A stretch of DNA of 64,000 nt from Paenibacillus graminis (GTDB lineage: Bacteria; Bacillota; Bacilli; Paenibacillales; Paenibacillaceae): positions 6,448,001 through 6,512,000 of the forward strand of contig NZ_CP009287.1 of the NCBI RefSeq assembly GCF_000758705.1, written 5' to 3'. Positions 28,134-34,920 of this stretch are shown in pieces (positions within the stretch are counted from its first letter, which is position 1; every line of letters starts with the position of its first letter). The notes under the pieces are model-generated. The model saw only the letters and a list, made by a program, of their open reading frames with translations, ran no database searches and was not told the DNA's origin. The position numbers were made by a program, and so were the translations under genes.

Positions 28134-29306
28134 TCAGAAAAAATCAAACAATGCTGTTTTAGCTTGGGGAATAACCTCTTCCAGCCAATCTAAGCCAGAA
28201 GAGCTTGCATTAAGCTGTCCGTACTTTGCCAGTTCCGCAGGCCGCTTGTAACCCAGTAGTATAACTGTGAGTGCTCCAATGGTGCAGCTCAAATCAGCAG
28301 CGGCCTTCTCACTATCCAAACGCTCAAAAGTTGCCGCCCCCTCAGCATTCACACTCCATAACCACAATCCGTTATTCCAAGGGGCCTGCTCATCTTCAAT
28401 ATACAGAGTCCGGCTCTCAAGGCTGTTGAGGCTCTGGAAGGTAAAATTCTCTATAAAGGTCCGCGCATTCACAATCCGTGCCATAAAGTATGGATAATTC
28501 TCCTGCGGAATCCGCGGATCCGGGAGCAAATAAGGAAGGATATCATCAGAAGGCACCAGCTTGAGCGAAGCTCCGGTAATCATCGAGTCATGGTTGGCCA
28601 GAAACGTCCACAAGCCTTGCCGCGCCTGTTCGTTCAAATAGATAAATTCATCAATGATTAGTTCGTTCTGCACTATTTTATACAGCACATAGCCTTCCGG
28701 CTCACCAAGCTCTGAGTAAAAAACACCATGATGCGTTTCCGCATCCAATACTCTATGCTTCCACCACTCCTGATCGCGCTCAAGAGTGCCATTGTATTCC
28801 GTTGCGAAGCGGCTGTACAGCCTTTCCAGTATTTCGAGAGCGGCTGAGTCCCGCTTCACCCTGCCCTGAATTTCAGTTTTTCGCGGAAATTTGTCCACAG
28901 GAATAGAGTACTTCTTATACTCACAGTAGACTTCCCAGCCGAATTTACGGTAAAAGGGGATCAAAAACGGATGCAGAAAAGACAACGTCTGTCCCGACTC
29001 ATTCATCGTTTGCAGCGTATGTGATAAAAGCTTGGCCACAAGCCCCTGCCTGCGGTTCTCCGGCCATGTGGATACTCCGGCTATTCCACCCATAGGAAAT
29101 ACTTTGCCTTGTATGTAGACCTGAAGCGGAAGCAATGTCAATTGTGCACCCAGCACCCCGTCCTCAAAGACTCCCCATACTCTTTCCGGCCTGAACTTCT
29201 GCCTGGCTTCAACTCTGTCTTCGCCCGCAACCTTATATTTAAAAGCATATTCGGACAAGCTCAAGGCCGCTTCAAACTCCTCGGATTGCAATTGCCTGAT
29301 TTCCAC
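28134..29306 (-). CDS. Eis-like GNAT family N-acetyltransferase
   Basis: A 390-residue protein of the Eis type. An N-terminal GNAT domain (residues 1-150) carries the acetyl-CoA loop in AGVSTWPENRRQGLVAKLL and the FLHPFLIPFYRKFGWEVYC segment typical of this group. A second degenerate GNAT domain follows, and the C-terminal sterol-carrier-like domain (about 290-390) ends with the free carboxylate tail TALFDFF, which in Eis takes part in catalysis. Mycobacterial Eis acetylates aminoglycosides and other amines; the substrate here is unknown. Monocistronic between the rrn terminator and the ctsR operon. Confidence 0.88.
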   Translation of the reverse strand: MEIRQLQSEEFEAALSLSEYAFKYKVAGEDRVEARQKFRPERVWGVFEDGVLGAQLTLLPLQVYIQGKVFPMGGIAGVSTWPENRRQGLVAKLLSHTLQTMNESGQTLSFLHPFLIPFYRKFGWEVYCEYKKYSIPVDKFPRKTEIQGRVKRDSAALEILERLYSRFATEYNGTLERDQEWWKHRVLDAETHHGVFYSELGEPEGYVLYKIVQNELIIDEFIYLNEQARQGLWTFLANHDSMITGASLKLVPSDDILPYLLPDPRIPQENYPYFMARIVNARTFIENFTFQSLNSLESRTLYIEDEQAPWNNGLWLWSVNAEGAATFERLDSEKAAADLSCTIGALTVILLGYKRPAELAKYGQLNASSSGLDWLEEVIPQAKTALFDFF

Positions 29307-29408
29307 TTCCGCTCACCTCATCAAAGTTAGTATTAGTACTCTCTAGGTGAGTATAACAAGCAAAACGCCTCAGCGCTAATCCGCCAGAGAAATTCTAATC
29401 CCCACAAG

Positions 29409-29670
29409 TTATCCACAGATAAAAAACAAAACAATTCACGATCAAACGACTTTATATATCTACAAAATAGTTATCCACCATTTCCGGGACATTATCCACA
29501 TAATCCACTTTTTATCCACAAAAACCGTGAATTACTAGGGTTTCCGCTTGACTCATCCACATTCTTATGTATTTAAGCTGAGAATTGGTGTATAGATTGC
29601 TTGCTGCAATTGTATCCACATGTGTGCAACTTTTCTGAAGTTGCTGAAAATTATCCACAGCTTTTCCACA
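29409..29670 (+). promoter_or_regulatory. DnaA-box cluster
   Basis: Four exact TTATCCACA boxes (29409, 29492, 29512, 29651) and four with one mismatch: TTATCCACC (29471), TCATCCACA (29553), GTATCCACA (29612) and TTTTCCACA (29662). All lie on the plus strand, within 262 bases between the acetyltransferase gene and the rRNA operon terminator. Several spacings are near multiples of one helical turn (62, 21, 20, 41, 11). Clusters of this type near the origin titrate DnaA or regulate initiation in B. subtilis. No gene overlaps it. Confidence 0.85.
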
Positions 29671-29684
29671 ACCCTGCACAACGC

Positions 29685-29715
29685 AAAAAAGCCACTGTCA
29701 GTAACTCAACAGTGG
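29685..29715 (-). terminator. rRNA operon terminator
   Basis: Minus strand CCACTGT...ACAGTGG hairpin followed by CTTTTTT, a few bases after the 5S end. Confidence 0.85.
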
Positions 29716-29721
29716 TCATGT

Positions 29722-29838
29722 GCTTGGCGGCGTCCTACTCTCCCAGGACCCTTCGGTCCAAGTACCATCGGCGCTGGAGGGCTTAACGGTCGTGTTCGGG
29801 ATGGGTACGCGTGGAACCCCTCCGCTATCGCCACCAAA
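29722..29838 (-). rRNA. rrf: 5S ribosomal RNA
   Basis: About 117 bases starting TTTGGTGGCGATAGCGGAGG and containing the conserved CCCATCCCGAACACG loop and the GGGAGAGTAGGACGCCGCC tail, which pairs with the 5' end. It follows 23S and precedes the terminator. Confidence 0.95.
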
Positions 29839-34834: not shown

Positions 34835-34920
34835 TTGGTATTTAGAAAGAGCGATTGCTCATTTTGAAACTGACGATTCATTATATGAATCTTTTAAAAA
34901 ATTAACGCGTTCCATTTGTT

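Follow-up and report, generated by a model that had tools for sequence, protein, structure and literature searches.

A conserved, rigidly spaced array of DnaA boxes beside an rRNA operon of Paenibacillus graminis, a candidate DnaA sink

Introduction

What does a dense group of DnaA boxes do far out on a chromosome arm of Paenibacillus graminis, straight behind an rRNA operon? In Bacillus subtilis, the joint removal of six DnaA-box clusters led to early initiation of replication (Okumura 2012, as related in reviews), and the importance of these clusters is doubted in one review. In Escherichia coli, datA follows the tRNA-Gly operon; read-through is described as lowering IHF binding at datA, and strong transcription through the site as cancelling its effect. 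The authors of the read-through study suggest that transcription-coupled control of the initiator may be general, and they name other bacteria with such clusters. A conserved region dense in boxes near oriC is also described in a 2025 E. coli study. Here we analyse the Paenibacillus locus, its counterparts in related genomes and the roles that it could play.

Results

Cluster A and its setting

The window is a stretch of 64,000 nucleotides, bases 6448001-6512000 of one 7,166,464-bp contig, and its coordinates are used for cluster A throughout. A box scan of the window confirmed what the initial annotation had claimed, namely eight TTATCCACA-like boxes on the + strand at 29409-29670, after an rRNA terminator. 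Four are exact (starts 29409, 29492, 29512 and 29651) and four have one mismatch (starts 29471, 29553, 29612 and 29662). We refer to this group as cluster A. The adjacent rRNA operon (16S-tRNA-Ala-23S-5S) lies on the - strand, with 21 bp between box 8 and its terminator stem (29692-29715). On the other side of the cluster follow a GNAT/SCP2 gene, whose 390-aa product is presumably Eis-like, then ctsR, a UVR-motif gene, a guanido-kinase-like gene and a ClpC-like gene.

The same contig starts with dnaA (ORF 88-1434, domain match from 415), which puts 689 kb of the left arm between cluster A and oriC. As the cluster adjoins neither dnaA nor dnaN, it was rightly held at the outset not to be oriC, and an ectopic origin was ruled out on the same ground. 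The region around dnaA carries additional DnaA boxes. The features of the locus are given below; bits stand for the variation per site, averaged over an alignment of 42 distinct Paenibacillus loci.

28134..29306, - strand: GNAT acetyltransferase with SCP2 domain, 390 aa, the downstream gene
29350..29358, - strand: presumed GNAT promoter, a conserved extended -10, TGTTATACT (from the alignment; absent from the calls of a consensus promoter scan)
29409..29417, + strand: DnaA box 1, TTATCCACA, 0.03 bits over 42 loci
29471..29479, + strand: DnaA box 2, TTATCCACC, 0.26 bits
29492..29500, + strand: DnaA box 3, TTATCCACA, 0.15 bits
29512..29520, + strand: DnaA box 4, TTATCCACA, 0.17 bits
29526..29534, - strand: degenerate opposite-strand box, CGTGnATTA on the + strand, inside a conserved block
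29548..29552, + strand: TTGAC motif, conserved (alignment)
29553..29561, + strand: fifth box of the initial annotation, TCATCCACA, 1.04 bits, spacer-like (spacers 1.08) and not conserved
29612..29620, + strand: DnaA box 6, GTATCCACA, half of a back-to-back inverted pair, 0.40 bits
29621..29629, - strand: near-box adjoining box 6, two mismatches to TTATNCACA in this genome
29651..29659, + strand: DnaA box 7, TTATCCACA, 0.11 bits
29662..29670, + strand: DnaA box 8, TTTTCCACA, 0.10 bits, at most one mismatch to TTATNCACA in 35/42 loci
29692..29715, - strand: terminator stem-loop of the rRNA operon, a T run after it; 9 pairs in one scan and 8 in another, folding energy ordinary (z = -0.90)
29722..29838, - strand: 5S rRNA, last gene of the rRNA operon, which runs from 16S at 34836 to 5S at 29722

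The boxes had been described as all facing one way, which is true here of TTATCCACA with at most one mismatch. Against TTATNCACA, the DnaA-box consensus used for B. subtilis (Smith and Grossman 2015, PMC4447404), opposite-strand near-boxes appear at 29621 and 29526. The first is within one mismatch of TTATNCACA in 24 of the 42 loci and within two in 41; the second, possibly a candidate low-affinity site, is within two mismatches in 34 loci and within one in none (0/42). Two-mismatch matches are frequent by chance, and it is conservation that speaks for these two near-boxes. Between 29548 and 29569, the + strand also shows an invariant TTGAC with TATG 13 bp later, partly conserved. A + strand promoter at this motif was discarded, as the promoter scan made no call there and its single promoter-like hit was at chance level.

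Density of the boxes

Within the window, 34 sites have at most one mismatch to the box, compared with a mean of 14.95 in 100 shuffles (sd 3.67, maximum 25). The genome-wide count proposed as a check on the cluster gave 91 exact TTATCCACA boxes, while the reversed pattern used as a control occurs 40 times, and the density of cluster A proved exceptional. Only two places in the genome hold at least three exact boxes in a span of 300 bp: cluster A, which has four, and a place that we call cluster B, which has three. When 91 sites were placed at random, four fell within 251 bp in 0/20,000 trials and three in 12/20,000.

The exact boxes favour the - strand on the right arm (5+/35-) and the + strand on the left (37+/14-), and 72 of the 91 share one sense relative to the fork, both with the terminus assumed at 3.6 Mb. 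This bias may reflect coding bias.

Conservation of cluster A in Paenibacillus

A search with the GNAT protein gave matches, near or distant, in 48/60 relatives, from which the best 30 places were taken, and a scan of named genomes gave 21 loci, every one of them Paenibacillus. With loci added later and with duplicates of identical sequence dropped, the set comprised 55 distinct GNAT upstream regions. The cluster had been expected at the same locus in related genomes, and it is present in 42 of these regions, each with 5-9 same-strand boxes and one with a single opposite box. P. jilunlii and P. helianthi are among the species that carry it. It is absent or unreadable in 13. One of the 13 (genome G022, locus L028) reads N and is not assessable, and a natural loss of the cluster there was dropped as an interpretation. 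In the 12 readable regions, the genes are at most 61% identical to the P. graminis GNAT gene, and five (L032, L129, L036, L038 and L039) have a 5S gene no more than about 1.1 kb away.

Over the 42 loci, the boxes average 0.28 bits and the spacers 1.08 bits, whereas box sets slid by at least 5 bases as controls gave 0.60 bits at the lowest. Hardly any variation is seen in seven of the boxes or in the distances between them, whereas the spacer sequence has diverged and the box at 29553 is not fixed; the eight boxes initially taken as one set are thus a conserved seven, without the fifth. Spacings read from the alignment columns are 62-65 bp between boxes 1 and 2 (40/42 loci), 20-21 bp between 2 and 3 (42/42), 20 bp between 3 and 4 (41/42), 99-102 bp between 4 and 6 (40/42), 38-40 bp between 6 and 7 (42/42) and 11 bp between 7 and 8 (42/42). 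In turns of 10.5 bp, the spacings of the seven boxes in P. graminis are 5.9, 2.0, 1.9, 9.5, 3.7 and 1.05. The proposal of whole helical turns, with binding on one face, therefore agrees with boxes 1-4 and 7-8 and fails for 4-6 and 6-7.

The surroundings are conserved as well. The 5S gene is located 414-447 bp from the GNAT start in 38 of the 42 loci, the remaining four contigs stopping at about that point, which bears out the suggestion that the position between the rRNA operon and the ctsR region is kept. The distance from box 1 to the conserved extended -10 is 57-63 bp in 37/41 loci.

A sequence profile of cluster A was built from 25 loci and applied at E <= 0.001. It matched 55 of 100 genomes of the genus, 50 of them over the full length at 82.8 bits or more and the other five weakly. 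Across the family, 86/245 genomes gave matches, and the 26 strong ones (at least 102 bits) all belong to Paenibacillus. In 59 genomes of other genera, the matches were weak only (20-38 bits), and cluster A was not found outside Paenibacillus by this profile search of 245 genomes of the family. With scores of up to 37.7 bits in other genera, a weak match does not by itself establish that two clusters are akin. Some of the weak matches are nearly full-length (for example G545:C1:5888975-5889235), and they may be instances of cluster B, origins or distant relatives of cluster A.

A look-alike on the right arm

Weak matches of the A profile on the right arm led to a further group, cluster C, at 826507-826690, on the 3' side of a second rRNA operon (5S at 826317-826433). 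Its match to the A profile, 20-39 bits, is weak by itself. Forty C places were inspected, chosen by an A-profile match or by guess, and one guess had no match. All 39 matched places have 3-6 boxes upstream of a gene that we take to be acyl-ACP-thioesterase-like, and in 37 of them a 5S gene lies at 216-1018 bp.

In the reverse direction, and among the matches listed, a profile of cluster C matches C in 51 of 100 genus genomes (32.5-109.6 bits), 39 of which were inspected at the locus. It also picks up cluster A in 47 of the 50 genomes with A (22.7-56.6 bits); 45 of these 47 matches exceed 25.4 bits, the score of the best other place among the matches listed. Two features are common to A and C: a pair of boxes 20-21 bp apart and the back-to-back pair TATCCACATGTGnrTAA. 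It is because of the reverse profile match and this shared pair that we regard A and C as akin, and common descent and convergence would both account for the likeness. The motif CCACATGTGNNYAANT has three genomic copies, in A, in C and just past the presumed dnaN, and its control has none (0). The boxes past the presumed dnaN (2788-2900) include an inverted pair, back to back and built like those of A and C, and it is possible that they are a further part of the origin region.

Among the matches listed, A and C occur together in 49 genomes, which are related and not independent. In one incomplete genome A is listed without C, and in two genomes C without A; in one of the latter the A locus reads N. 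At the thresholds used, neither cluster is present in about half of the genus. In P. graminis, two of the ten 5S flanks carry clusters, those of A and C, which rules out DnaA-box clusters as a shared property of rRNA operons.

Distance from oriC

The dnaA gene was located in 23 chosen genomes, three of which (G033, G113 and G115) consist of more than one contig. The position of C was taken from all 23 and that of A from 22, since G022 reads N at A. As a share of chromosome length, the distance from oriC is 8.4-10.5% for cluster A, on the left (22 genomes in which one contig of 6.1-8.5 Mb carries both dnaA and A), and 8.4-11.6% for cluster C, on the right (23 genomes). The distance of C is 0.83-1.26 times that of A in the 22 genomes with both. 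This mirror placement is weak evidence, because, of the six rRNA operons on the right arm, one would fit, and the constant position of A and its linkage to rRNA may be explicable by conserved gene order alone. In E. coli, datA and the DARS sites are described as keeping their relative distances.

Cluster B and other groups of boxes

Cluster B, with its three exact boxes, lies at 1327590-1327860 on the right arm, 3' of an ABC-F gene. A three-box pattern was found in 83 of 100 genus genomes, and cluster B represents its second recurrent form besides A; places of this form, identified by the pattern, are 15.1-18.5% from oriC in 20 genomes. At least seven boxes in the 500 bp past the ABC-F gene were counted in 25/27 loci of the family (eight of the 27 are in the genus) and in 6/20 loci outside it. 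The 17 genomes of other families were hand-picked, closed or nearly so, from 277 with a match, and loci L179 and L180 come from genomes already represented, G196 and G232. A separate recurrent three-box cluster with a sequence of its own was seen in one subgroup (G022:C1:6979142-6979219, and similar in G031, G036, G064 and G096); in G022 and G096 it is at most 500 bp away from the end of the contig.

Judged by its family, position and orientation, the ABC-F gene is presumably a ydiF orthologue, and cluster B appears to match the position of the gcp/ydiF DnaA-binding site of B. subtilis. That region, downstream of gcp and ydiF at 628 kb, is given as among the strongest, with ten sites and a Kd of 0.15 uM for ATP-DnaA in vitro (PMC4447404). 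The view that cluster A is the equivalent of the B. subtilis clusters can be kept as to kind, an extra-oriC cluster, and has to be given up as to locus: it is B, and not A, that matches gcp/ydiF, and A is found in 50 of 100 genus genomes.

Discussion

Cluster A is an array of DnaA-box sequences that is under selection and rigidly spaced, and that keeps nearly the same relative position, beside an rRNA operon. It is real and well conserved, and its kind is already known. Like the B. subtilis clusters, it lies away from oriC and packs several DnaA boxes into a short intergenic region. It differs from them in its seven conserved same-orientation boxes, its fixed spacing and its look-alike C. None of the 17 top binding regions of B. 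subtilis that we examined corresponds to the rrn-GNAT-ctsR locus or is described as lying beside an rRNA operon, and neither rrn nor rRNA occurs in the main text of that study (PMC4447404). A Streptomyces DnaA-box cluster, likewise outside oriC, is said to repress untimely initiation (Smulczyk-Krawczyszyn 2006, cited in PMC10950094).

By its arrangement, cluster A resembles datA: both are non-coding groups of DnaA boxes straight after a stable-RNA operon and its terminator. datA is described as needing IHF and promoting ATP hydrolysis. In E. coli, datA is placed at 94.7 min and oriC lies at about 84.6 min, which puts datA about 10% of the chromosome from oriC. We found no report of DnaA-box clusters in Paenibacillus, or of rRNA-linked pairs, among the papers listed in searches of the open-licence literature.

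Taken with these precedents, the sites and their geometry suggest that cluster A is probably a non-coding DnaA-binding element which, with C and B, restrains replication initiation. A and C are most likely DnaA sinks with this effect. DnaA would bind the seven conserved boxes, probably cooperatively, given the fixed geometry. At about 10% of the chromosome from oriC, cluster A would be duplicated early in each round, and the competing sites would double. The doubled sites could then compete with oriC for free DnaA and hinder re-initiation, as the B. subtilis clusters and datA lead us to suppose. In this, A would have two partners, the smaller cluster C on the opposite arm and cluster B.

The main rival is that cluster A is a DnaA-responsive control region of the GNAT gene, comparable to sda and ywlC in B. 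subtilis, with any effect on initiation secondary, and we regard it as a serious although rather unlikely alternative. Several B. subtilis genes are regulated by DnaA (PMC4447404), A is upstream of the GNAT gene with its box 1 at a near-constant distance from the extended -10, and C is also upstream of a gene. However, A and C have the rRNA operon in common and not the downstream gene, the boxes extend 364 bp upstream of the GNAT start with the farthest conserved like the nearest, and cluster B sits at a gene's 3' end. GNAT relatives beside a 5S gene that have no cluster also argue against this role, although they are the divergent ones noted above.

It is improbable that bound DnaA serves as a roadblock keeping rRNA read-through out of the downstream gene, or as a platform on which forks that emerge from the operon restart. 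Cluster A does follow the terminator stem closely, C is also behind a 5S gene, the fork reaches the rRNA operon before the cluster, and DnaA binding at datA is described as contributing to transcription attenuation; nevertheless, a terminator is already there, and the other eight 5S flanks of this genome have no cluster. Still less credible is a DARS-like element that would reactivate DnaA and promote initiation. The fixed spacing and the near-boxes on both strands would suit such an element, but seven spread boxes are unlike the compact DARS core, and we know of no DARS analogue in Bacillus. As for chance or compositional clustering, TTATCCACA is common and strand-biased in this genome, yet we give this explanation practically no weight: a chance origin was rejected because of the conservation and the genome-wide count, and the rigid spacing, the simulated density and the recurrence across the genus point the same way.

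For the preferred reading, that of a DnaA sink, the upstream rRNA operon raises a further, speculative prospect, namely that the operon may tune the sink, with read-through transcription disturbing the DnaA complex. This datA-like coupling is an attractive extension drawn from analogy. In its fullest form, which we offer as a tentative and on balance doubtful proposal, part of Paenibacillus would have two related DnaA sinks, one per arm at about 10% from oriC and both coupled to the rRNA operon behind which they lie, such that rRNA read-through would set the level of free DnaA; the pair would be an independently evolved, doubled counterpart of datA and its tRNA operon.

Finally, there is no settled view of how Gram-positive bacteria coordinate initiation with growth, and papers differ in the weight that they give to the B. 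subtilis clusters. The rRNA-linked pair, together with the older cluster B that appears to share its position with B. subtilis, provides three defined loci, and A, C and B would allow a direct test of whether transcription-coupled control of the initiator is general.
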